Of a stretch of 10,838 nucleotides of DNA, positions 1-10,838 are shown piece by piece (position 1 is the stretch's first letter; each line of letters starts with the position of its first letter). Position numbers and translations under genes: made by a program. Where the stretch lies: the NCBI GenBank assembly GCA_030041195.1, contig JASHOI010000693.1, forward strand, positions 1-10,838, written 5' to 3'. The stretch is from Streptosporangiaceae bacterium (GTDB lineage: Bacteria > Actinomycetota > Actinomycetes > Streptosporangiales > Streptosporangiaceae). The notes under the pieces are model-generated. The model ran no database searches, was not told where the DNA came from, and saw only the letters and a program-made list of their open reading frames with translations.

Positions 1-1095
1 CCCGCGCGACCCGGTGGGCCAAACCGGGCCGGCGGGCCCCCGCGGGCTGGCGGGCAGACACGGCCGAACCGCCCCGCACGAGCCGGCGGCGCGCCGCGAG
101 GACCGCGAGCCAACGGGCCGATGCAGGACTACAACACCGGGCAGGGCTTCGCCCCGCCGCAGGACTACGGCAACGCGGCGCCGGGTTACCCGGCCGCCCA
201 GGACTACAACACCGGGCAGCAGTTCGGCGGACCGCAGGACTACAACACCGGCCAGCAGTTCCAGCCCGGTCCGGGCTACCCGCCCGCCCAGGACTACAAC
301 ACCGGGCAGAACTTCGGTGCACCCCAGGACTTCGGCGCGCCTCAGGATTACGACACCGGCCAGCAGTTCCAGCCCGGTCCGGGCTACCCGCCCGCCCAGG
401 GCTTCGACCGCGGCCAGGGCCGTGCGCCCGCGCGGCGTTCCCAGCCCGGTGCCGGCTACCCGCAAGCAGGGGGCTATGCGCCCGGTCAGGGCCCGCAGCG
501 CCCAGGCCCGCAGGGTCGCGGCAACCGGCGGCTCTACGCGGTGCCTGACGCCGGTCGCGGTCCGGGGAGCATGGGTCCTGGCGGTGGGCAGATGGTCCAG
601 TACGGCGGCGGCCAGGCGGTCGCGCTGGCCAACCCTGCATGGCAGGGCGACCCCCAGCCTGCGTGGGAGACCCAGGGGGCTCTGGCAACGATGCCTGCCC
701 CGGCGATCGCGCCGCCCAGGCCGAGGACCAGGCCCAATGGCCCGGCGGCCAGGCCGAGGACGGCGTCGGCTAGGCCGGCCGGCCTGGCCGGGCCGAGGAC
801 GGCCCAGGGCAGGAGGCCGGAGGGGGCGCGAGGCAGGCAGGCGCGCGCCATGCGCATCGCCACGGCCGCCACCGTGTCACTGTTCGCGTTCACCGTCATC
901 GCCGCCGGCGCGAACATCGCGCACTTCGGGTTCAAGTTCTTCACCTTCCGGGAAGCCGGAGCAGGCGAGACCGGCGGCTCCGAATTCGACACGACCTTCC
1001 TGGCTCAGCAGGCCGCGGCCAAGGCCGCCGCGGCCAAGGCCGCGACGCAGGGGCACACGCCAGGGAAGCACTCCGCGAAAACCACATCCGGCTAG
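1..1095 (+). CDS. Cassette 1 gene A: Pro/Gly/Gln-rich repeat protein with one C-terminal membrane segment (5' partial)
   Basis: The frame is open from base 1 to the TAG at 1093-1095, with no ATG or GTG before 121 and no Shine-Dalgarno before the ATG at 121, so the true start probably lies left of the window. From 121 the protein is low-complexity: QDYNTGQ occurs four times, with variants QDYDTGQ, QDYG and QDFG, interleaved with QFQPGPGYPPAQ blocks. A Pro/Arg/Ala-rich linker ending in a basic stretch (about 780-855) precedes one hydrophobic segment (about 856-915). After it comes a short segment with KFFTFREAGAG and a Lys/Ala tail (KAAAAKA). By the positive-inside rule the repeat region should be cytoplasmic and the tail outside. 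The C-terminal region matches the gene at 3208-4320, which marks the two as paralogues. No named family is recognised. The function is unknown; a disordered scaffold or regulator for the adjacent membrane protein is inference only. Confidence 0.8.
   Translation, partial: PARPGGPNRAGGPPRAGGQTRPNRPARAGGAPRGPRANGPMQDYNTGQGFAPPQDYGNAAPGYPAAQDYNTGQQFGGPQDYNTGQQFQPGPGYPPAQDYNTGQNFGAPQDFGAPQDYDTGQQFQPGPGYPPAQGFDRGQGRAPARRSQPGAGYPQAGGYAPGQGPQRPGPQGRGNRRLYAVPDAGRGPGSMGPGGGQMVQYGGGQAVALANPAWQGDPQPAWETQGALATMPAPAIAPPRPRTRPNGPAARPRTASARPAGLAGPRTAQGRRPEGARGRQARAMRIATAATVSLFAFTVIAAGANIAHFGFKFFTFREAGAGETGGSEFDTTFLAQQAAAKAAAAKAATQGHTPGKHSAKTTSG
245..400 (+). repeat. 48-base perfect direct repeat inside gene A of cassette 1
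   Basis: Bases 245-292 and 353-400 are identical, a period of 108 bases (36 codons). Each copy encodes the stretch from TGQQFQPG to YPPAQ. Identity at synonymous positions points to recent internal duplication or gene conversion rather than slow divergence. Weaker copies of the QDYNTGQ unit surround them (from about 121, 202 and 295). Confidence 0.9.
1012..1041 (+). repeat. Tandem 15-base duplication coding for the Lys/Ala tail
   Basis: Bases 1012-1026 and 1027-1041 are identical and encode two AAKA-type units near the C-terminus of gene A. This is an in-frame expansion that lengthens the tail after the membrane segment. Confidence 0.85.
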
Positions 1096-1156
1096 TTAGC
1101 CGACACATAAAGCGAATAACTAGCCTGCCGGCTGGAACCGCAGCCGGTTAACCGGC
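1090..1156 (+). promoter_or_regulatory. Cluster of inverted repeats between genes A and B of cassette 1
   Basis: A perfect 9-base inverted repeat, GGCTAGTTA (1090-1098) and TAACTAGCC (1117-1125), spans the stop codon of gene A with an 18-base loop. It is followed by CCGGCTG (1128-1134) pairing with CAGCCGG (1141-1147) over a 6-base loop, and by a 14-base perfect palindrome GCCGGTTAACCGGC (1143-1156) that competes with that hairpin. No T-tract follows. It could be a partial terminator, an mRNA processing or stability element, or a protein-binding site; the sequence alone does not decide. Confidence 0.6.
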
Positions 1157-1217
1157 AGAAGCCAAAGGCTAACCAAATGGGGAGCGAGCCAAGCTCTGTG
1201 GAAGGAGAATCCGCACA

Positions 1218-2246
1218 ATGGCTACCACTAGGGAGCCGTACACGGGTTATTCACCCGCTCCACCAAACGCACCGTATGGCGGCCCGGATACCTACGAGCC
1301 AGATCTATACCCCGACGGTTCCGCAGGCGCATGGAACCAAGGGCCGGCGGTTGACTACCAGGCACCGCGGCCGGCCAAGAGCCGTGCCGGCGAGCAGGAA
1401 CTCGTCGCGTCCAGGAGTCGTGTCGACGAATGGATGGACAAGGACTTCAAGTTCGGCGGCTCCCGCATCAAGCGGAAGGCGGTCGCGCTGATCCTGCTGG
1501 GCGCCCCCGCGGTGCTCCCGCTGTTCTTCATGGCGCCGGCGTTCTTCACGATGAACGTAGCAACGTTCGCGGGGTCGGTCGACGACACGCTGGGCACCGG
1601 GGCCGAGCTCTGCCTGTTCATCTGCCTGCTCGTCACTCCCATGATCACGCTTACCGGGCAGCGCTGGTTCTTCCCGCTGCGCCGCTGGTACGGGATCCTG
1701 TTCGCGTGTTCGGGCTTCGGCGACATGCTCGCCGCAGGCCTTACCGATAACTTCGCTGGAGGCTTCTTCGGCAAGGTGGCCGGGCACGTGTTCGAGCTCA
1801 TGGGCTTCATGATGGTGATGCTCGCGATCCCGCTGCTGATCACCGGCAACCACTGGGCGCAGCGCAAGCTCGGCCGGTACTGGAAGCCGCTGCAGCGGAT
1901 CACATATGTCATCTGGGGGCTGCTGTTCCTCCACTTGGCCCTGCTGGAAGGACTCGGGTTCCAAAACGGGGCCACCCACAACGGCTCGGGCAACCCCGGT
2001 GACGGTGACCCCATCTTCCACCAGCGGCTCTACCAGTACTGCGCGTGCAGCCTGTTCCTGCTGACTCTCCGGCTACCGCTAGTCAGGCGGTGGATAGCCG
2101 CCCGGCAACGGGAGGGCCGGGGGTGGCTGGTGTGGCTGACCATCGCACCGATTTTCGCGCTATTCATATTCGGCATGATCTTCGCCATCAACGAGGAGAT
2201 CTTCAAGGGGTTCAACTCCTTCATGGAGCACCCCAGCGCCGAATAA
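1218..2246 (+). CDS. Cassette 1 gene B: MsrQ/ferric-reductase-like multi-helix membrane protein
   Basis: 342 aa. AAGGAG at 1202-1207 sits 10 bases before the ATG. Residues 1-80 are a hydrophilic, Pro/Tyr/Asp-rich cytoplasmic tail. About seven hydrophobic segments follow (about 88-110, 127-146, 155-175, 188-208, 227-245, 270-288, 304-325). The pattern LVTPMITLTG, then LRRWYG, then AQRKLGRYWKPLQ and TYVIWGLLFLH follows MsrQ/YedZ and the ferric-reductase-like transmembrane domain. Compared with E. coli MsrQ from memory, the position of haem ligand His91 is Asp169, that of His151 is Gln226, and only His164 is kept (His239). His190 and His268 (in FHQR) are shared with the paralogue at 4399-5391. 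INEEIF near the C-terminus is also shared. There is no FAD or NAD(P)H domain, and no MsrP gene in the window. Membrane location is secure; redox or haem function is inferred and uncertain because ligands are replaced. Confidence 0.88.
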   Translation: MATTREPYTGYSPAPPNAPYGGPDTYEPDLYPDGSAGAWNQGPAVDYQAPRPAKSRAGEQELVASRSRVDEWMDKDFKFGGSRIKRKAVALILLGAPAVLPLFFMAPAFFTMNVATFAGSVDDTLGTGAELCLFICLLVTPMITLTGQRWFFPLRRWYGILFACSGFGDMLAAGLTDNFAGGFFGKVAGHVFELMGFMMVMLAIPLLITGNHWAQRKLGRYWKPLQRITYVIWGLLFLHLALLEGLGFQNGATHNGSGNPGDGDPIFHQRLYQYCACSLFLLTLRLPLVRRWIAARQREGRGWLVWLTIAPIFALFIFGMIFAINEEIFKGFNSFMEHPSAE

Positions 2247-2265
2247 GTCGGCGATCGTCATCGGT

Positions 2266-2305
2266 TTGGCTGGGGCTGGCAGCCGGAAGCTGCCGCCCCA
2301 GCCAA
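2266..2305 (+). promoter_or_regulatory. Long stem-loop between genes B and C of cassette 1
   Basis: TTGGCTGGGGC (2266-2276) pairs with GCCCCAGCCAA (2295-2305), and GGCAGC (2278-2283) with GCTGCC (2289-2294). This gives a 17-pair stem with one bulged T and the 5-base loop CGGAA. It lies 19 bases after the stop of gene B and 25 bases before the start of gene C. No T-run follows. In high-GC actinomycetes this could be a partial terminator or an mRNA-stabilising element that lowers expression of gene C relative to B. Confidence 0.7.
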
Positions 2306-2330
2306 CGGGACGGGTTAGCAGAGGAATCTT

Positions 2331-3011
2331 ATGAGCGAGACATACGCCGACGACTACGACTACGAGCGGGAGCCGCTTGGCGCCTTCCTGGTCGTAGCCA
2401 TTTCCATCCTGGCTGGCATCCTGGTGCTCGCGGGTCTCTTCTACGCCACAGGCACCAGCGCGCGTCACAAGGCCGCGCTCGCCGTCAACGACTGCGAGCC
2501 CAGCATGTCCCCATCGGGTATTCCTTGCAACACCCAGGCGATGGTGCTCGCCGAGTTCCAGGGGATCGTGACCCCAGCCGGCAAGCAACTGAACGCTGAT
2601 ATGGTCGCCTACCGCACCGACGAGAAGCGCCATCTCGCTGCGGCCGAAGCGGCCCTTACGTCGGAGGTGGCGACGGAGCAGGCGCTCAACAGCAGTCTGG
2701 CCGCGGTGGCGTACACGCCCCAGAACTATGCCAACGCCATTAACCTGATCACGATCAATTTTGATGCCGGGACTCCCACGCCACCGGCCGCGATCCTTCT
2801 GACGCCGCAGACCACGGTGATGGCCGATGCGCTGATGCAGGCCAACCAGGCCCTCGCAAAGCTGACCGGCGAGCAGGCAAAGTCGACCACGCTCGCCCAG
2901 TTGCAGTCGTTCAACAGCCGGGTCGATGCCGCCAATGCGACCGTGCTGGCCGACATCAACGCCATTCACAAGGCTCTTGAAGTGGTACCGACGGCGGCTC
3001 AGGAGCCCTGA
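2331..3011 (+). CDS. Cassette 1 gene C: membrane-anchored helical protein
   Basis: 226 aa. AGAGGA at 2320-2325 is 5 bases before the ATG. The N-terminus is acidic and Tyr-rich (YADDYDYE, residues 5-12), followed by one hydrophobic segment at about 17-39. The rest is mostly predicted helix, rich in Ala, Gln and Asn. Cys55 and Cys66 could form a disulphide if this part is outside the cell; the flanking charges leave the topology open. Residues 92-127 and 186-205 align without gaps to residues 65-100 and 130-149 of the protein at 5392-5904 (shared LAAA, EV, and the L-L-S-V spacing), so the two are paralogues. No known domain is recognised. Position directly after gene B in both cassettes suggests it is a partner of that membrane protein; this is inference. 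Confidence 0.87.
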   Translation: MSETYADDYDYEREPLGAFLVVAISILAGILVLAGLFYATGTSARHKAALAVNDCEPSMSPSGIPCNTQAMVLAEFQGIVTPAGKQLNADMVAYRTDEKRHLAAAEAALTSEVATEQALNSSLAAVAYTPQNYANAINLITINFDAGTPTPPAAILLTPQTTVMADALMQANQALAKLTGEQAKSTTLAQLQSFNSRVDAANATVLADINAIHKALEVVPTAAQEP

Positions 3012-3207
3012 TCGGTCGCAAAGACAGATCAGCGGAGGGTGGATCGAGAGCTTGGGTCCCCTAAGGGTCCTTCGTCCCTCGGGGGGTATCCGTCTCCGGC
3101 CAGATTTGCCGAGATACCCGATCTGCCAGGCATGTTGGGCTAACTTGTTGTTCAACACGCCCGAAGTCAAGTTTGGCGTCGGGCGCCCCTCTGCTGTTGG
3201 AGGCCCC
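3012..3207 (+). other. Gap between the two cassettes, with small inverted repeats
   Basis: This 196-base gap has no convincing gene; an open frame from 2926 crosses it but overlaps gene C and lacks a start signal. It holds GGGTATC (3084-3090) and GATACCC (3113-3119) as a 7-base inverted repeat over a 22-base loop, and TGTTG-TT-CAACA (3146-3157). TAACTT at 3141-3146 fits an actinobacterial -10 (TAnnnT), but no clear -35 precedes it. A promoter for cassette 2 may lie here; transcription could also run through from cassette 1. Confidence 0.4.
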
Positions 3208-4320
3208 GTGGTCACGGATGCCCCCGGTAGGCACCGGAGGTTTGAGGCCGAGCAGTTCAGCCGGGTTGCTGAATCGTACGCCGCTAACAGGCCGCCGGCC
3301 CCAGACTGGCCGCCGGACCCGCGCGGTGCCTCTTGGCCGCGATGGAATGCCGCCCCGCCAGCATTGCCTCCCGATCATCCGTCTGCCCCGGTACCGCAGG
3401 TCCGCGCGGTGCGGGCACCGGCACCGCCCGGGCCGTTGCCACAGCGGCGGCCCGGTGCCACAGCGGGCGCGGGTGCACCGGCACGAGGCGACGTTCCACG
3501 CCAGCGCTACAACGCCGGCCAGGGTTATGCACCCGCGCCACGGTTCCAGCCGAGCGCGGCTCCGCCCGGAGGTGTGCACCCAGCACAGGGGTACCCGGCC
3601 TGGCATGGCGACCCCCGGCCCGGCGGTTCGTTCCGCGGCGGCCAGATGCCGGCCATGCCGCACGGTCAGGCCGCCGCGGTCAACCAGGCGTGGAGCCAGG
3701 CCACCGCGATCCGTGAAGCCGCCGAGAATGACGCCGCGGCGATCAGGCAAGAGGCCTTCGCGATCCGTGAAGCCGCCGAGAGGGAGGCCGCCGAGATGCG
3801 GGCGGCCATCCTGTCAATGTCGCAGCAGCTGAGCAGGATGGCGGCCTACCTGACGGAGAACTTCCCGTCCTCGGGCGCGGCGACCGTTCTTGCTCCGGCA
3901 GTCCCGGCTGCTCCGGCGGTGGCACCTCCGGCCGCACTTCCGCGGCCGCCGATGCCTCGGCCAGCGGCGGTATCGACCCGGACCCGGCCCGCGGCGCCGG
4001 CTGCCCGTTCCGCGGCGCCCGCTACCCGTCCGGGACGGCCCGCCACCCGTGCCGAACGGCCGGTCACCAAGCCAGCGAAGTCGACTACCCGGCCGGGCAC
4101 ATCACAAGGCCGGCAGGCGCGCGCCGCGCGCAAGATGTTTGCGGTCCTCGCCGTCCTGGTCACGGCCGGCGCCATCACCGGAGGTACTCAGATAGCGCTG
4201 CACGGAGGGCGCTTCTTTATCTTCCGGGAGAACGGGGCGGGCGCGTCGGAGACCGGAGTCACCGACAGCCAGTTCCCCGGCCATCCGGGCGCCCCGGCCC
4301 CGCCCAAGCACGCCAGATAA
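3208..4320 (+). CDS. Cassette 2 gene A: Pro/Ala-rich protein with a helical region and C-terminal membrane segment
   Basis: 370 aa from GTG at 3208. This start was chosen because GGAGG (3199-3203) lies 4 bases upstream and the frame has no other nearby start; the open frame reaches back to 2926 but would overlap gene C. Regions in order: a Pro/Arg-rich N-terminus; a degenerate copy of the cassette 1 repeat (RYNAGQGYAPAPRFQP, about 3508-3555); a charged Ala/Glu/Arg helix (about 3670-3860) with repeated AIREAAE, a likely coiled coil; a Pro/Ala/Arg/Thr-rich basic linker; one membrane segment (about 4135-4200); and RFFIFRENGAGASETG after it. The last motif matches gene A of cassette 1 (KFFTFREAGAGETGG). 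The coiled-coil stretch is not evident in the cassette 1 protein. Function unknown; the coiled coil would permit self-association. Confidence 0.8.
   Translation: MVTDAPGRHRRFEAEQFSRVAESYAANRPPAPDWPPDPRGASWPRWNAAPPALPPDHPSAPVPQVRAVRAPAPPGPLPQRRPGATAGAGAPARGDVPRQRYNAGQGYAPAPRFQPSAAPPGGVHPAQGYPAWHGDPRPGGSFRGGQMPAMPHGQAAAVNQAWSQATAIREAAENDAAAIRQEAFAIREAAEREAAEMRAAILSMSQQLSRMAAYLTENFPSSGAATVLAPAVPAAPAVAPPAALPRPPMPRPAAVSTRTRPAAPAARSAAPATRPGRPATRAERPVTKPAKSTTRPGTSQGRQARAARKMFAVLAVLVTAGAITGGTQIALHGGRFFIFRENGAGASETGVTDSQFPGHPGAPAPPKHAR
3705..3781 (+). repeat. 23-base direct repeat coding for the coiled-coil unit
   Basis: Bases 3705-3727 and 3759-3781 are identical, 54 bases (18 codons) apart, and each encodes AIREAAE. 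The spacing suggests the charged helix grew by in-frame duplication. Confidence 0.8.
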
Positions 4321-4331
4321 CCCTGCAAAGC

Positions 4332-4374
4332 CAGCCCAGTCTGGGCTGTGCTGACTCGCCAAAGCCCGCACAGC
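4332..4374 (+). promoter_or_regulatory. Two overlapping, mutually exclusive hairpins before gene B of cassette 2
   Basis: CAGCCCAG (4332-4339) and CTGGGCTG (4341-4348) form an inverted repeat around one central T. GCTGTGC (4345-4351) can instead pair with GCACAGC (4368-4374) over a 16-base loop. The two stems share bases 4345-4348, so only one can form fully at a time. They occupy the gap between gene A (stop at 4320) and the ribosome-binding site of gene B. This is an attenuator-like arrangement, but no leader peptide or T-tract is seen. Confidence 0.5.
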
Positions 4375-4383
4375 GGAAGGGCA

Positions 4384-4391
4384 AGAGGAGG
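4384..4391 (+). promoter_or_regulatory. Ribosome-binding site fixing the GTG start at 4399
   Basis: AGAGGAGG at 4384-4391 ends 7 bases before GTG 4399. It is close to ideal and argues against the in-frame ATG at 4348, which would place this purine tract inside the coding region and has no comparable site. Confidence 0.85.
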
Positions 4392-4398
4392 CAGGAAA

Positions 4399-5391
4399 GT
4401 GAGCCAGAGAAACACGATCCAGGAGCAGTATCCCTATCCGGAAGGGCCATACCCCGGTCCTTACCAGGACGCTCGCTACCAGGACGGTCCTTACGCGGAC
4501 GCTCCTTACGCGGACGACGACTACGAGGATGATTTTTACCCGGACTACGGCGAGGAACAGCCGCAGTCGAAGGCCAAGAGGCGGTCGATCGACGCCTGGA
4601 TGGCCCAGCAGTCGACGATCTTTCCCCGGTTCAAGAGGCGGTCGATCGCGCTATTCTTCCTGCGCCTTCCCGCGTTCGTTCCGTGGTTCTTCATCCTGCG
4701 CGGCTGGCTGTCGCTGAACACCAAGGACGTGCTGACGCTTTCCGAAGCCGACGTTCTGGGTACGGGTGGCGAGGCCACCTTCCTGATAGCCGTGTCGATC
4801 ACGCCGCTTATCACGCTGACCGGGGCGCGGTGGTATGCGCCGCTCCGGCGGTGGTACGGCATCTTCTTCGCGCTCATCGGCATCTCGGACGCGACCACCG
4901 CTGCGATCACGACCAGCTTCTCCGGCGGAGTCTTCGGCCGGCTGGCCGGGCACACCTTCCTGGTAACGGGGTTCCTCATCGTTCTGATCGCGATACCGGT
5001 GCTACTTACGGCCAACACGCCGGCCCAGCGCAGGCTCGGGACGTACTGGAAGAAGCTGCAGAAGCTGACCTACGTGATCTGGGGCATGATCGTCCTCCAC
5101 CTCGGCCTCCTCGACGGGTTCCGTCCGTTCGACGGGCCGCAAGGTGACGGGGACTCCGTGTTCCACCAGCGCTTTTATCAGATCCTGGCGATCAGCCTCC
5201 CGCTGGTGATTCTCCGGCTGCCACCGGTAAAGCGCTGGATCACCGATAAGCGCGCGGCCGGCCAGCAGTGGAAGGTGTGGTGCGCGATCGCGCCGATGGC
5301 CGCCCTGTACCTCCTCGGCTTCGCGTTCATCATCAACGAGGAGATCTTCACCGGACTCCAGGTCATGACGCTGAACCCGCCGGCGAACTGA
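4399..5391 (+). CDS. Cassette 2 gene B: MsrQ/ferric-reductase-like multi-helix membrane protein
   Basis: 330 aa from GTG 4399. Residues 1-60 form a strikingly acidic, Tyr/Pro-rich tail (YADAPYADDDYEDDFYPDYG), partly built from a 15-base tandem repeat (4488-4501 and 4503-4516). The membrane core matches the gene at 1218-2246 without gaps from about residue 100 to 240: TPLITLTG, LRRWYG, GHTF, AQRRLGTYWKKLQ, TYVIWGMIVLH. Residues Asp164, His185, Gln221, His234 and His256 (in FHQR) correspond to Asp169, His190, Gln226, His239 and His268 there. INEEIF is also kept. Thus both copies share the same change from the MsrQ ligand pattern as I recall it: Asp and Gln in place of two histidines. It is a multi-pass membrane protein. 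Its stop TGA (5389-5391) directly abuts the ATG of gene C, so translation is probably coupled. Function unknown; electron transfer, haem binding or sensing are possible. Confidence 0.88.
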   Translation: MSQRNTIQEQYPYPEGPYPGPYQDARYQDGPYADAPYADDDYEDDFYPDYGEEQPQSKAKRRSIDAWMAQQSTIFPRFKRRSIALFFLRLPAFVPWFFILRGWLSLNTKDVLTLSEADVLGTGGEATFLIAVSITPLITLTGARWYAPLRRWYGIFFALIGISDATTAAITTSFSGGVFGRLAGHTFLVTGFLIVLIAIPVLLTANTPAQRRLGTYWKKLQKLTYVIWGMIVLHLGLLDGFRPFDGPQGDGDSVFHQRFYQILAISLPLVILRLPPVKRWITDKRAAGQQWKVWCAIAPMAALYLLGFAFIINEEIFTGLQVMTLNPPAN

Positions 5392-5904
5392 ATGAGCGCG
5401 GTGTCCCAGGCAAAAGCTCCGCGGACAAACATCACCGGCTTCCTTCTGATAGCCGTGGGGTCGCTGATCGCCGCCGTCCTGCTGATTGCTGCCATCCCCT
5501 ACTACAGGGGCTCGCCGGCGAGGATCGCGAGCCTCTACTCGAACCTTGCCGGTCCGGCCGACCGAGCCCTCGCCGCCGAGTTCCAGGCCTATGGCGTTAA
5601 CCGAAATCGCAATCTGGCCGCGGCCAAGCTGGATCTGTCGGACGAGGTGAAGGCGGAGACCTCGTTCGACAGCCAGCTAGGCCAGATCACGTTCCCGCCA
5701 GCAGCCGACCCCCACGCCGACCAGCTCACCGCGGCCGACGCGAAGCGGATCAAGCTGATAAAGCTGCAGCTGAAGGCGACCTCGCTCAGGAAACTGCGCG
5801 CGCTCGACAGCCAGGTGGAGGCCGCGAGCGCCGCCGTCGATGCCCAGGTCACGATCATGCGCGCGGATCTGGGCTTGCCCGCGGTGAGCGGCGGCCTTTA
5901 CTGA
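5392..5904 (+). CDS. Cassette 2 gene C: short membrane-anchored helical protein
   Basis: 170 aa. The ATG follows the TGA of gene B with no base between (TGAATG), which supports translational coupling; no separate strong Shine-Dalgarno is needed. One hydrophobic segment lies at about 15-37, followed by a helical domain rich in Ala, Leu, Lys and Asp. It matches gene C of cassette 1 in two blocks (AY...LAAA...EV around 66-86, and L..L..LDSQVEAA at 132-146). It lacks the two Cys residues and about 55 residues present in the cassette 1 protein, including the acidic Tyr-rich N-terminus. No known family is recognised. It ends 7 bases before the stop of the convergent GntR gene. Confidence 0.85.
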   Translation: MSAVSQAKAPRTNITGFLLIAVGSLIAAVLLIAAIPYYRGSPARIASLYSNLAGPADRALAAEFQAYGVNRNRNLAAAKLDLSDEVKAETSFDSQLGQITFPPAADPHADQLTAADAKRIKLIKLQLKATSLRKLRALDSQVEAASAAVDAQVTIMRADLGLPAVSGGLY

Positions 5905-5911
5905 GGCCGAG

Positions 5912-6640
5912 CTACTCGGAGGCGCCCGGCGGCGGCCTGCGCACCATGATCGTCTCGATGGGGTAGCCGGCCCGCATGGCGCTCATCGCGTACTCGACGA
6001 CGAGGTTCGAGCTGTCATACGTGGTCCTCGCGATCCGGAGCACCGGCTCGTCGGGCTTCAGGTCGAGAGCCCAGCCGTCGGCTTCGCCGGCGACCGCGGC
6101 CATCACCGCCTGCTTCGCACGCACGATGCGCACCCCGTAGCGCACCTCGAGCATCGCGTACAGCGAGCCGTCCAGCAGCGGATCCGCGTCCAGGCCCGCG
6201 AACCGCGCGCACGGCAGCCACGAATTCTGCACGACGATCGGGCAGCCGTCCACCAGCCGTACCCGCCGGATCGCCACGGCAGCCGCCGACTGCCCGAGCA
6301 GCAGGGCCATCCGCGCGGCGGGCGGCGGCTGCTCCACCGCCGCGTTGAGCAGTCTGGTCTCGACCTCGCGGCCCTGCCCGCGCATTTCCTCGGTGAAGCT
6401 CAGCAGCAGTTCCGCGCTTCTGGTCGGGCGGTCAGCGGCGAACGTTCCCAGGCCCTGCCGCCGGATCACGTTCCCCTCGGTCGCCAGTGCCCCCACCGCC
6501 TGGCGGATCGTCATCCGCGCGACGCCGTATCGGGCCGCGAGTTCGGTCTCGGACGGCAGCCGATCCCCCGGACCCCATTCGCCGGCGTCGATCCGGGCCC
6601 GCAGGTCGTCGCGAATGGAGATGTGAACGGGCCGGCTCAT
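5912..6640 (-). CDS. GntR-family transcriptional regulator, HutC/UTRA subfamily
   Basis: 242 aa. Residues about 5-68 are a GntR winged helix-turn-helix: DDLRARIDAGEWGPGDRLPS, then ETELAARYGVARMTIRQAV, then IRRQGLGTF. Residues about 75-235 fit a UTRA effector domain (FTEEMRGQG, VRLVDGCPIVVQNSWLP, LVVEYAMSAMRAG). This subfamily usually represses sugar or amino-acid uptake and catabolic genes and is released by a small metabolite, often a phosphorylated sugar. Its ATG overlaps the TGA of the upstream kinase gene (ATGA, 6637-6640), so it is the second gene of that operon and likely controls it. The effector cannot be named from sequence. Confidence 0.95.
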   Translation of the reverse strand: MSRPVHISIRDDLRARIDAGEWGPGDRLPSETELAARYGVARMTIRQAVGALATEGNVIRRQGLGTFAADRPTRSAELLLSFTEEMRGQGREVETRLLNAAVEQPPPAARMALLLGQSAAAVAIRRVRLVDGCPIVVQNSWLPCARFAGLDADPLLDGSLYAMLEVRYGVRIVRAKQAVMAAVAGEADGWALDLKPDEPVLRIARTTYDSSNLVVEYAMSAMRAGYPIETIMVRRPPPGASE

Positions 6641-8277
6641 CGCTTTCTCGCATGCGGCTCACGCCGCCGGGCGGCGGCTAAGCGAGCGGATCCGATTATC
6701 CTCACTGTCGCGTACCTCACGCTTTTCCAGGCTGGTAAATCGCGAGCATACCAGCGCGCGAAGTTGCCCCAGCGAACCTTTTTGCGGAGCCTTGAGCCGC
6801 TGCTGTCCCGGCCGTTGTTCAGTAACTCCATCACCTCGCGCCACCGCCGGTAGCGCCGCTCGGTGGTAGCAGCCTCTGCCGGATCGGGGCCATAACGCTG
6901 AGTGGGGGGCGCAATCGCCATCGCCGCCACCCGCGCGTCGGGGAACTGCCCGGCCGCCACCGCCGCGGCAAGCGCTGCGCCGCGCAGGCTGGCGTACCGT
7001 TCGGCTGCCCTGCCGATCTCGACATCCCACACGTTGGCCCGCAGTTGCACCGCGCGCGGTGAGGTGGCCGGGCCGCCGGCCAGGATCACGCGGCTGACGT
7101 CGGCGCCGGCCGCCCGGAGCGCGTCGATGCCGAGCCGTACCTCGAATGCACTGCCCTCCTCGGCGGCTCGCATCAGGTGCGCGGGACCGTGCTCGCCGGA
7201 AATCCCGTCGATGCGGCCACGCACCCGCGCATCCCACCCGGGCAGGCGCCGACCGGTGAGCGTCGTCCTGATCATGAGCTCGCCCGGATCCGCGGCGTCC
7301 AACGACGGCTCGAGCGCCCGGTACGCGGCATCGGCCGACTCGTGGCCGAGGGTCGAGGCGAGCCAGTCAAGGCCGCCACCGGTCAGTCCGGTCGGCCCGC
7401 CCACCGTCCAGAGATCGTCGAGCAGATACGCGTTGAGCACCGCACCGCCGGAGACCCGGGCCGACGGCGTGTCGGTCACGTGCAGCAGAACGTCGGTGGT
7501 GCCCGCGATGTCGACGGTCAGGCCCGCCCGGACCGCTCCGACGCCGAGAGCCCCCGTCGTGCCGTCAGGCCCACCGACCGCGACCGGGGTTCCGGTCTCC
7601 AGGCCGGTCAGCTTCGCCGCCGCCGGGGTCACGCCCCCGGCGAGCGCGACGCCGGCCCGGACCGGGGGCAGGATCTCCATGGGCACGCCGCATCTCCCGG
7701 CGATCCGCACCGACCACCGCCGCTGCCGTACATCGAACAGCTGGGTGTAGGAAGCCGTCGCCGGATCCGTACACGGAATCCCGGTGAGCTGGAGGGTGAG
7801 GTAATCCTTCAGGCTCAGCAGCCACCGGGTGCGGCGGAGCACCCCGGGCCGGGTCTTGCCGAGCATGCGGACCCGCGCGGCCGCGGACTCCGGCGACACC
7901 GGGCGGCCGGTCACCGATTCGAGCTCCGGTCCGAACAGGGCGCCGAGCTCCTGAGCCTCCGGCCAGGCCCGGTTGTCGCGCCAGAGCATCCCCTGCGCGG
8001 ACGGACGGCCGTCGGGGCCGGTCAGCACCGTCGCTAGGTGCGCCGTCAGCCCTACGGCGCGCACCCGGGCGCCGGACCCGGTCAGCTCTCTGATCGCCGA
8101 CGCGACCGCCCGCCAGGTCGAGTCGGGATCGAACTGCGCGCCTCCGCCCGGGTCCGGCCTGCTGATCAGGGGACGCAGCGCGCCGGACGGGCCGATCATC
8201 CCGGCCCGTATCCCACCGCCACCCACGTCAACCCCGAGCAAGCCATCGGGGACCGGCTGCGCGCCCTCGCCGGTCAT
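6637..8277 (-). CDS. FGGY-family carbohydrate kinase (xylulokinase-like) with an extra basic C-terminal tail
   Basis: 546 aa. It should transfer phosphate from ATP to a hydroxyl of a sugar or polyol in the cytoplasm. The N-terminal half has the ATPase-fold loop LLGVDVGGGGIRAGMIG (13-29) and the substrate-side motif MLWRDNRAWPEAQEL (97-111). GGPDGTTGALGVG (235-247) carries the probable catalytic Asp238. The nucleotide-binding C-terminal half shows ILAGGPATSPRAVQLRANVW and SLRGAALAAAVAAG (430-443). The usual end of the family falls near residue 488 (RWREVMELLNN). About 57 further Arg/Lys-rich residues follow, with relaxed codon use including TTA at 514 and 533. The substrate is undetermined because no transporter or dehydrogenase is nearby. 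It forms an operon with the downstream GntR gene. No strong Shine-Dalgarno is seen before the ATG at 8277, so the exact start is less certain. Confidence 0.92.
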   Translation of the reverse strand: MTGEGAQPVPDGLLGVDVGGGGIRAGMIGPSGALRPLISRPDPGGGAQFDPDSTWRAVASAIRELTGSGARVRAVGLTAHLATVLTGPDGRPSAQGMLWRDNRAWPEAQELGALFGPELESVTGRPVSPESAAARVRMLGKTRPGVLRRTRWLLSLKDYLTLQLTGIPCTDPATASYTQLFDVRQRRWSVRIAGRCGVPMEILPPVRAGVALAGGVTPAAAKLTGLETGTPVAVGGPDGTTGALGVGAVRAGLTVDIAGTTDVLLHVTDTPSARVSGGAVLNAYLLDDLWTVGGPTGLTGGGLDWLASTLGHESADAAYRALEPSLDAADPGELMIRTTLTGRRLPGWDARVRGRIDGISGEHGPAHLMRAAEEGSAFEVRLGIDALRAAGADVSRVILAGGPATSPRAVQLRANVWDVEIGRAAERYASLRGAALAAAVAAGQFPDARVAAMAIAPPTQRYGPDPAEAATTERRYRRWREVMELLNNGRDSSGSRLRKKVRWGNFARWYARDLPAWKSVRYATVRIIGSARLAAARRREPHARKR

Positions 8278-8601: not shown

Positions 8602-9507
8602 TTACTCGTCCAGCAAGTCGCTGATCATCTTGATGCTGCCCTCGGTGGGCAGGGCCTCAACGCACAGGCGTTCGAGCACCGCCATGTAGTGGTCGACGGC
8701 ATCCCGCTTGTCCAGGTACAGCGCGCTGGTGAGCTGCTCGAGGTAGACGACGTCAGGCAGGTCCGGCTCGCCGAACCGGAGCACGGTGAACGCCCCGCCA
8801 ACGGCGGCGGGCCCGCCGGTGGTGAGCGGGACGACCTGGAGGCTGACGTTCGGCCGGTCGGCCATGTCCATCAGGTGCCTGAGCTGGCCGCGCATGACGT
8901 CGGGCGAGCCGACGGGCCGCCGCAGCGCCGCCTCGTCCAGCACCATCCACAGGTGCGCCGACGTCCGGCGGGTGATCACCGCCTGGCGCGCCATCCGCAG
9001 GCTGACCCACCGCTCGATCTCATCGTCCGGCCTGCCGGGGTGACCGAGCATCGCGATCGCGCGGGCGTAGTCCGCGGTCTGCAGCAGGTCCGGGACGTGC
9101 TGCATCTCATAGCAGCGGATCGAGCTGGCCGCCTCTTCGAGGCCGACGTACGGCTCGAACCAGGCCGGCATCACGTCGGCGTAGTCGTGCCACCAGCCCA
9201 TCGCGCTTGCCTGGCGGGCCAGTTCCAGCAGGGCCTCGCGCTCCTGCACGTTCGTGACGCCATACAGGGTCAGCAGGTCAGCGATGTCCCGGCTCTTGAA
9301 GCCGACCCGGCCGGTCTCCAGCCTGCTCATCTTCGAGCCCGAAGCGCGGATCACGTACCCGGCTTCCTCGAGGGTGATCCGCTTTGCCTCACGCAGGCGG
9401 CGGAGCTGTGCGCCCAGCATGATGCGCAGCGCGGTCGGGCCACCGCCGCCCGACGGGGCGATCATGTTCCGGACAGCCGCGCCGCTGCAGGGCGGATGTG
9501 TGGTCAT
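8602..9507 (-). CDS. XRE-family helix-turn-helix regulator with DUF5753 domain
   Basis: 301 aa from ATG 9507. This start was preferred over the in-frame ATG at 9537 because AGAAGGA (9519-9513) lies 5 bases upstream. Residues about 27-84 are an XRE helix-turn-helix (LGAQLRRLREAKRITLEEAG, SGSKMSRLETGRVGFKSRDI). Residues about 105-285 are DUF5753, shown by WWHDYADVMPAWFEPYVGLE, CYEMQHVPDLLQTADYARA, DEAALRRPVG, RPNVSLQVVP and PDVVYLEQ. Such regulators are abundant in actinomycetes, often sit beside a small DUF397 gene and a nucleotide-binding or signalling gene, and some affect development and antibiotic production. No DUF397 gene is visible on its downstream side. The gene is divergent from the helical-repeat gene at 9816, and the shared gap holds candidate control sites for both. 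Confidence 0.95.
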   Translation of the reverse strand: MTTHPPCSGAAVRNMIAPSGGGGPTALRIMLGAQLRRLREAKRITLEEAGYVIRASGSKMSRLETGRVGFKSRDIADLLTLYGVTNVQEREALLELARQASAMGWWHDYADVMPAWFEPYVGLEEAASSIRCYEMQHVPDLLQTADYARAIAMLGHPGRPDDEIERWVSLRMARQAVITRRTSAHLWMVLDEAALRRPVGSPDVMRGQLRHLMDMADRPNVSLQVVPLTTGGPAAVGGAFTVLRFGEPDLPDVVYLEQLTSALYLDKRDAVDHYMAVLERLCVEALPTEGSIKMISDLLDE

Positions 9508-9514
9508 GCGCATC

Positions 9515-9532
9515 CTTCTGGGGGGCCAGAAG
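9515..9532 (-). promoter_or_regulatory. Hairpin enclosing the ribosome-binding site of the XRE gene
   Basis: On the minus strand CTTCTGG pairs with CCAGAAG around the loop CCCC. The 3' arm contains most of the Shine-Dalgarno sequence AGAAGGA of the XRE gene, 5 bases before its ATG. Folding would hide the site from ribosomes. It could equally be a DNA dyad bound by the regulator itself. Confidence 0.5.
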
Positions 9533-9537
9533 ACCAC

Positions 9538-9815: not shown

Positions 9816-10838
9816 GTGGCACTTCCGGACGCCCACGACGGCGAGGCCGAAAGCCGCGGCGCGGCACTGGGTAATCAGGCAGAGCCGCTGGCCGAGCGGC
9901 TGCGCAGGGCACGACTGCAGCCCAGAGCCGACCAGGTTCCTGCCCTGGCAACACCCTGGCTGTCCACGATGTCCGACGGTTCCGAGCGGCCCGTGGCACG
10001 GGTGGCCGCACTGAGCCAGATCGCGCAGTCGGCCATGCGCCTTGGCCGGGTGACGGAGTGCCTCGCCGCGCTGACCGAGCAGCGGACGGCGGCCGGAGAC
10101 GACCCGGCCGCACAGGTATGGGCGCTGACCGCCTCGGCCGCCTGCCGGTCGGTATTCGGCCAGTTAGGACAGGCTCGCGCGGACCTGGCCGAGGCCAGGA
10201 AGGTCTGCTATTACACGACCCCGCTGCTGGCCGAGCCGTTCTGGCGGTTCACCGGGGTCGTGCTCAACTGGCTCGGCGGGAACTGGACGGAGGCGCTGTC
10301 CGACGCCGCGCTGATGGACACGAACCAGGTGAGCGCGTTCCCGCCCGCGCTGTCCGGGACCGTGGCCGCGCTTCGCATGGAGCTGCTGCGCGGCCTCGGC
10401 ATCCCCGGCGAGATCCGCCAGCTTGCCAACAAGCTCGACGCCGAGGGGCCAGCCGAGCTCAGCGCGTGGGCCTGGGCAGGCCTGGACATCGACGAGGGAC
10501 GCCCCGACGACGCGCTGCGCCGCCTCGCCGACGTCTGCGACGTGGGCACCCGGAGCGTGTACCGGACCGCGCTGCCGCTGGTGCTGCACCGGATGGCGGA
10601 GACCGCGTTCGCTTGCGGCGAGCCGGACGTGACCGCCTTCGCGGCTGCCGCCCTCGCCGAACTCGACCCGGCAGCGCCGGTGAACGTGATGCTCGCCGGG
10701 CTCGCGCAGGCGTACGCGGCCCGCGACCCCGCTCCGGCGCGCCGGGCACAGGAACTCGCGCAGGCCGAGGGCGCGGTCACACTGGTGGCTGAGGCGCTCA
10801 CCGTGCGCGGCCAGGTCGGCGACGACCCCGCCTCGACG
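9816..10838 (+). CDS. TPR-like all-helical protein (3' partial)
   Basis: The frame is open from GTG 9816 to the last base (341 codons); an in-frame TAA at 9804-9806 fixes the left limit. After a charged N-terminus the protein is a run of Ala/Leu/Arg helix pairs resembling tetratricopeptide or LuxR/MalT-type helical repeats: VAALSQIAQSAMRLGRVTEC, GQLGQARADLAEARKVCYY, EGRPDDALRRLADVC, HRMAETAFACGEPDV, AGLAQAYAARDPAPARRAQE. No NTPase motif or DNA-binding domain is visible in the part present, but the missing C-terminus could hold one. One TTA codon (10164-10166) occurs. Codon use is typical of the window, which supports this frame over the overlapping opposite-strand frames. It is divergent from the XRE gene. 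Its role is unknown; protein-protein interaction or signalling is the usual task of such repeats. Confidence 0.75.
   Translation, partial: MALPDAHDGEAESRGAALGNQAEPLAERLRRARLQPRADQVPALATPWLSTMSDGSERPVARVAALSQIAQSAMRLGRVTECLAALTEQRTAAGDDPAAQVWALTASAACRSVFGQLGQARADLAEARKVCYYTTPLLAEPFWRFTGVVLNWLGGNWTEALSDAALMDTNQVSAFPPALSGTVAALRMELLRGLGIPGEIRQLANKLDAEGPAELSAWAWAGLDIDEGRPDDALRRLADVCDVGTRSVYRTALPLVLHRMAETAFACGEPDVTAFAAAALAELDPAAPVNVMLAGLAQAYAARDPAPARRAQELAQAEGAVTLVAEALTVRGQVGDDPAST

Follow-up and report, generated by a model that had tools for sequence, protein, structure and literature searches.

The first 5904 nucleotides (nt) of a stretch of DNA from a soil actinobacterium of the Streptosporangiaceae (contig JASHOI010000693.1 of assembly GCA_030041195.1; the window is the whole stretch of 10,838 nt that was analysed) carry six genes on the plus strand in the order A1-B1-C1-A2-B2-C2, in which the B products are multi-helix membrane proteins related to the ferric-reductase domain (FRD). 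It is proposed, with a probability of about 0.5, that A and B constitute a membrane module of two subunits, derived from the FRD and with a single haem or metal site that faces outward, and that the cassette of this host, an ancient tandem duplication, is built on such an A-B core. The analysis thereby sets a two-gene core, also present on phage contigs, apart from the three-gene cassette, and yields a residue-level prediction of one outer site, formed by D123, D169, H190, and H239. The six genes are the following:

1..1095, plus strand: A1, an open reading frame (ORF) whose 5' end runs off the window; recognized by a hidden Markov model (HMM) of the A family (E=1.6e-9), with a transmembrane (TM) helix by hydropathy.
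1218..2246, plus strand: B1, an FRD/MsrQ-like multi-helix membrane protein, recognized by PF01794, by the MsrQ model, and by alignment with MsrQ.
2331..3011, plus strand: C1, one TM helix plus a helical domain, with a conserved Cys pair; 485 relatives at E<=0.001.
3208..4320, plus strand: A2, an ORF with a GTG start; 48 relatives found through its C-terminal region.
4399..5391, plus strand: B2, the second FRD/MsrQ-like protein, with a GTG start downstream of a purine-rich stretch; relatives begin [MV]SQR.
5392..5904, plus strand: C2, a shorter paralogue of C1 (BLASTP E=1e-9) that begins right after the stop codon of B2.

The Pfam family PF01794 (Ferric_reduct) matches B1 at E=9.1e-4 and B2 at E=6.8e-3, with 19.7 and 16.9 bits, under its gathering score of 28. 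It is also found in 30 of the 49 members of the B alignment A5 at E<=0.01 (best E 1.4e-9), and in all six of the phage B proteins described below (E 0.011 to 8.2e-5). The best curated match is the NCBIfam model for MsrQ (37.6 bits for B1 and 33.1 for B2), which does not reach the equivalog cut-off of 130. When B is aligned with 19 MsrQ proteins, it keeps to their core, and many of its relatives carry the Joint Genome Institute (JGI) names MsrQ/YedZ. By sequence, then, B is a relative of the FRD, nearest to MsrQ, and its fold is probably a known one, which corrects an earlier reading of this DNA made from the letters alone (the sequence-only reading), where B had been part of an unnamed cassette. 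No dehydrogenase domain was found in B by Pfam, and hydropathy detected five of the seven helices in B1 and likewise in B2. The structure model of B is weak (predicted local distance difference test, pLDDT, 61.0; predicted template modelling score, pTM, 0.51). NOX and STEAP chains are among its better VIA-align rows, intermixed with unrelated helical proteins, and Foldseek returned nothing at E<=0.001. A sequence search of the PDB with the B profile gave one chance match only (E=0.42), PLSDB gave no match to B2, and a single scan of genome contigs returned one Oxalobacteraceae locus.

Four residues, D123, D169, H190, and H239, are invariant in all 126 B proteins compared, that is, 120 window and database proteins (the window pair plus 118 database proteins, with P0012 left out) and six from phages; the 118 were treated as host proteins, some of which could be phage-borne. 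H268 and E326 are invariant in the 120 and are present in three and five of the six phage proteins, respectively. Three of the invariant positions can be set against MsrQ:

1722..1724, plus strand: B1 D169, aligned with the TM3 haem His of MsrQ.
1785..1787, plus strand: B1 H190, at a position held by Arg in the 19 MsrQ compared; its B2 counterpart is H185 (4951..4953, plus strand).
1932..1934, plus strand: B1 H239, aligned with the second TM5 His of MsrQ; its B2 counterpart is H234 (5098..5100, plus strand).

The three His of MsrQ, which we take to be H91, H151, and H164 of E. coli, are all present in 19 of 19 MsrQ proteins and correspond in B to Asp, to Gln or His, and to His. At the TM5 inner-haem position (B1 residue 226), Gln occurs in 72 and His in 48 of the 120 window and database proteins, with Gln in all six phage proteins; B2 holds three His in total. 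Just one of the positions of the four haem His of NOX/FRE proteins is always His in B. As the outer-haem His of TM3 is Asp in 126 of 126 proteins, B is at most a divergent FRD member. From charge and the topology of MsrQ, the four invariant residues would be placed on the outer half of the membrane.

The evidence that A and B belong together comes from phages. Scans of IMG/VR with B alignments revealed B on nine viral contigs. The protein is identical in L005, L006, and L008 and matched also by L007, and therefore six distinct phage B proteins are represented. A small ORF with one TM helix and the A motif adjoins B in seven of the nine contigs; of the remaining two, L041 starts at B itself and L007 starts inside the A gene. 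With the copies collapsed, A stands beside B in five of the five phage types with the flank present. These phage A ORFs are short and encode a basic stem, a single TM helix, and the tail HGxxFxxR..G.G (NG in L004). The gene order is A-B in L004 and L006, and B-A in L037, L039, and L040. At the junction, GTGA overlaps are found in L004 and L040, and also in L006 when the second GTG is taken as the start of B; in L039 an ATG lies inside the last codons of B, and in L037 the genes are 2 nt apart.

An HMM of 47 database A proteins (taken from outside the phage search, with P0288 omitted) was run against 1986 six-frame ORFs from ten sources, and its top matches were A2, A1, and then five phage ORFs (E 2e-8 to 2.8e-5), with the next ORF at 0.33. 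In the reverse direction, an HMM of the five phage A proteins was run against 134 window ORFs and scored A2 (1.1e-10) and A1 (9.9e-6) best, the next one being at 0.47. A loose search for the A motif in the nine loci gave one extra match, not beside B (L040 18986), and a DNA pattern for F(V/I)FRxAGTGAT matched four viral contigs, all of them B-bearing. A separate pattern matched one contig, L009, which was rejected: its called ORFs have a low GC content at third codon positions and include no B, and it is not among the best 20 of the 1986 A-HMM rows.

Phage marker genes were tested on five of the nine contigs, and each of the five carries hallmark genes: terminase, portal, protease, and major capsid on L006; tape measure and endolysin on L004; terminase and portal on L039; terminase, endolysin, and primase on L040; and DNA polymerase, Sak4, and ParB on L037. 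The position of the A-B pair differs: L004 has it near tail/lysis genes, L006 before the terminase, and L037 near replication genes. No integrase was found in the three records L037, L004, and L006, which may be fragments. INPHARED gave no match to L006 B, L004 A, or L037 B, and PLSDB searched with L037 B returned three Sinorhizobium records at E=0.09 and 23.7% identity. Two other features of these contigs can be mentioned: in L006, a 93-residue protein of secreted type is encoded after B (10874-11155), with no PHROGs match at E<=0.01, and in the 87 kb contig L037 a run of ORFs downstream of A-B (13439-20388) resembles, by eye, sugar-nucleotide/glycosyltransferase genes.

The conserved unit outside the window is A-B, not A-B-C. 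No relative of C was found in viral contigs by scan, and the best match of the C HMM in the B-bearing loci has E 7.3 (this HMM included the window C2, so its match to C2 is circular). C being without a relative in the phage loci, the three genes are therefore not one indivisible unit. The proposal of the sequence-only reading that the three products act as one complex survives as some functional tie, seen in the adjacency of A and B in phages and in the size sharing described below, but not as an indivisible assembly. That reading would have been refuted by homologues of A, B, and C scattered independently in other genomes; the outcome is divided, no such scattering of A and B being seen in searches that reached host genomes only indirectly, whereas C proved separable.

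In the window itself, the description of the six genes as a tandem, diverged duplication of all three members holds, and the motifs that had been quoted for A, B, and C are all present in the translations. B1 and B2 are identical at 143 of 327 positions (44%; BLASTP E=7e-91) and share LRRWYG, FHQR, and INEEIF. Their cores had been said to align without gaps, which is correct from the start of TM2 (LGTG) to just beyond the TM5 His; gaps of seven residues in the TM5-TM6 loop and of one in the TM1-TM2 loop, as well as N-terminal gaps, lie elsewhere. C1 and C2 are 24% identical (BLASTP E=1e-9), with the blocks LAAA..L..EV and FNSRVDAANATV / LDSQVEAASAAV in common. The relation of A1 to A2 was missed by plain BLASTP (best E=0.014, within low-complexity sequence), and it is the HMM mentioned above, built on A2 relatives, that recovers A1 at E=1.6e-9 among the 1986 ORFs; the common part consists of a basic stretch, one TM helix, and the FFxFRExGAG tail.

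Among the best 120 of 1538 database matches to B, 84 are B1-like and 36 B2-like. In a tree of 44 rows, for which the tree tool warns that long branches meet, they form separate clades (support 99/98 and 100/99) joined at 89/93, a node that is not starred. The phage proteins fall into two clades outside these, and the branch to MsrQ is very long. The separation of the B1-like and B2-like clades means that the duplication is older than the split of the sampled B1- and B2-bearing lineages, and the cassette duplication can be regarded as ancient on these comparisons. The tree gives no order between phage and host as to which had the module first. Two database B proteins are irregular: P0012 has an internal repeat of the TM4-TM5 region, and P0109, on a 1416-base contig, resembles B2 at its beginning and B1 at its end. 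Both look like products of recombination between tandem paralogues or of misassembly. An indirect sign of linkage between the cassette genes outside the window as well comes from database relatives of A, B, and C (the best 120 of 1538 for B, the best 120 of 485 for C, and 48 of 48 for A), which share identical longest-contig sizes nine times, against a mean of 0.92 and a maximum of five at 600 offsets. Only rows of at least 3 kb were used for this comparison, as the row for all contigs (14) includes four artefacts from blank entries.

The A proteins of the window are built as a disordered arm, one TM helix, and an outer tail. The arm is rich in QDYNTGQ repeats in A1 and holds a coiled-coil-like stretch in A2, and the tails carry FFTFREAGAG and FFIFRENGAG, respectively:

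940..966, plus strand: A1 motif FTFREAGAG, at residue 314 of the translated stretch.
4216..4242, plus strand: A2 motif FIFRENGAG, at residue 337.

The 48 relatives found with the C-terminal region of A2 range from 211 to 633 residues, and the block of TM helix plus tail is present in 48 of 48. A has a basic stem ahead of its helix, and B has an acidic C-terminal tail and acidic outer loops; this charge pattern suggests that the A tail and the outer loops of B share one side of the membrane. In PLSDB, A2 gave a match (E=0.7) beside a gene of the SCO6880 family on a conjugative plasmid of Streptomyces; it spans just query residues 3-60, does not reach the motif, and was taken as chance.

An A-B complex with one outer cofactor site is the simplest account of the residues that never vary, of the coupling between the genes, and of the membrane side common to A and B. 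In the proposed mechanism, A and B would form one complex in which B, close to its outer face, binds one haem through H239 and H190 or else a different metal, haem being the first guess and a non-haem metal the second. A would be the small partner, made up of a cytoplasmic stem of basic character, a single TM helix, and a short tail on the outside (HGxxFFxxRxxGxG-like) that may lie over the site of B and control how an electron donor or acceptor outside the cytoplasm gains access to it. In the host, this core would have gained a long disordered arm on A and the helical partner C, in two specialised versions, while in phages the bare A-B would be an accessory gene pair. A bolder version, which seems unlikely in its full extent, holds that A-B is a new class of FRD complex, whose outer site has been rewired (TM3 His to Asp, with a new His at the start of TM4) and covered by a single-pass subunit, and which moves between soil phages and Actinobacteria, is used by the phages as an accessory pair of membrane proteins, and has been domesticated, given a third subunit, and duplicated in hosts of the Streptosporangiaceae type.

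The main alternative is that B keeps the FRD scaffold without a redox cofactor, and that A-B serves the envelope in a structural or exclusion role, for example as a phage pair that alters the membrane or blocks superinfection, with host copies domesticated and duplicated. That no B protein retains the TM3 haem His agrees with this, as do the differing genome positions of the pair in five phage types and the lack of an enzyme partner among the window ORFs scanned. Nevertheless, two His and two Asp that stay unchanged in 126 proteins suggest a bound ligand, PADLOC-DB gave no match for eight proteins at E<=0.1 (an undescribed defence system would escape detection), and the tree, as mentioned above, orders neither phage nor host first; this explanation is considered somewhat improbable. 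It appears very unlikely that B is simply an MsrQ, or belongs to the MsrQ-like flavinylation systems of Actinobacteria, and passes electrons across the membrane to a partner of the MsrP type or to one binding flavin mononucleotide (FMN). MsrQ is its best curated match and lends many relatives their names, and clusters of MsrQ-like PF01794 proteins with apbE and FMN-binding genes are reported to be common in Actinobacteria (PMC8238504). Against this stand the bit scores far under the cut-off, the Asp in place of the TM3 His in every B and the Gln in place of the inner TM5 His in 78 of 126, and the Pfam scan of ten window ORFs, in which no molybdoenzyme, ApbE, or FMN_bind was matched (the stretch upstream of A1 lies outside the window). 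Finally, P0012 and P0109 show that rearranged copies or misassemblies occur, and the two cassettes could accordingly be a recent duplication or an assembly artefact without specialised roles; this is hardly credible, being refuted by the divergence of the copies (24-44% identical) and by the separate, supported clades of B1-like and B2-like proteins.

B resembles MsrQ/YedZ in its six-helix FRD core, the LRRxxG and LGxxWxxLxRxxY blocks, and the distal TM5 His; it differs in that Asp replaces the TM3 His, Gln in most cases the inner TM5 His, and His the conserved Arg at the start of TM4, and in having an extra C-terminal helix and the partner A. The short bacterial FRD/STEAP proteins (Zhang et al. 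2013, PMC3591440) are described as mostly lacking the inner-haem His (Arg and Gln instead) while keeping the outer pair. They share with B the TM3 Arg, the TM5 Gln, and, as proposed for B, a single outer site, but they keep both outer ligands (His-115 and His-222 of NOX2), whereas B lacks the equivalent of His-115. The actinobacterial flavinylation clusters likewise contain a PF01794 membrane protein; apbE and FMN-binding genes are reported to accompany it there (PMC8238504), while the window has A and C in their place, with neither of the former among the ORFs scanned. NOX and SpNOX (PMC5676040, PMC11564096) have the same FRD membrane domain, together with four haem His and a domain for flavin adenine dinucleotide (FAD) and reduced nicotinamide adenine dinucleotide phosphate (NADPH), neither of which B has.

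Giant viruses of eukaryotes (nucleocytoplasmic large DNA viruses, NCLDV) are reported (PMC9270025) to encode ferric reductases described as NADPH-oxidising metal reductases, so that a virus-encoded FRD as such would not be new; the likeness to phage B noted here is that of the name of the gene. In the titles and abstract openings of the open-access papers searched, no FRD protein of a bacterial phage and no comparable A-B pair was found. The statement of the sequence-only reading that no system of this composition had been described is consequently half right: the fold of B is probably a known one, while the titles and abstract openings searched mention neither the module, nor the partner A, nor their presence in bacterial phages. 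If the proposal is true, soil phages have a redox or metal membrane module among their accessory genes, and the FRD superfamily gains a ligand swap. It also suggests that the database names MsrQ/YedZ on many of these proteins may mislead about function.

The relatives of C (485 at E<=0.001) are helical proteins with one TM helix, and the C1-like members listed have a Cys pair in common (alignment A6). The structure model of C has a mean pLDDT of 61.3, and in its comparison with the PDB four-helix domains such as PcaY rank high, with no match at E<=0.001. The C-terminus of C1 (window 2994-3008) is unusually conserved, as nearly all of the relatives aligned end in AAQEP or AVQEP.

The GC content of 69%, together with one named relative (P0136), points to a probable host of the Streptosporangiaceae type. 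The intergenic gaps, in gene order, are 122, 84, 196, 78, and 0 nt. No sigma-70-type promoter was matched in 1-6700 (0.6 in shuffled sequences), and the terminator-like matches on both strands (four, against a shuffled mean of 2.6 +/- 1.7) are near chance. Downstream of C2, the window contains:

5912-6640, minus strand: GntR/UTRA regulator (family scan), overlapping the FGGY kinase gene.
6637-8277, minus strand: FGGY carbohydrate kinase (family scan).
8602-9537, minus strand: HTH_31/DUF5753 regulator (family scan).
9816-10838, plus strand: divergent ORF with a weak tetratricopeptide-repeat (TPR)-like match only.

The first three of these genes are apparently unrelated to the cassette, the GntR/UTRA regulator and the FGGY kinase (5912-8277, minus strand) forming an ordinary sugar-use pair.

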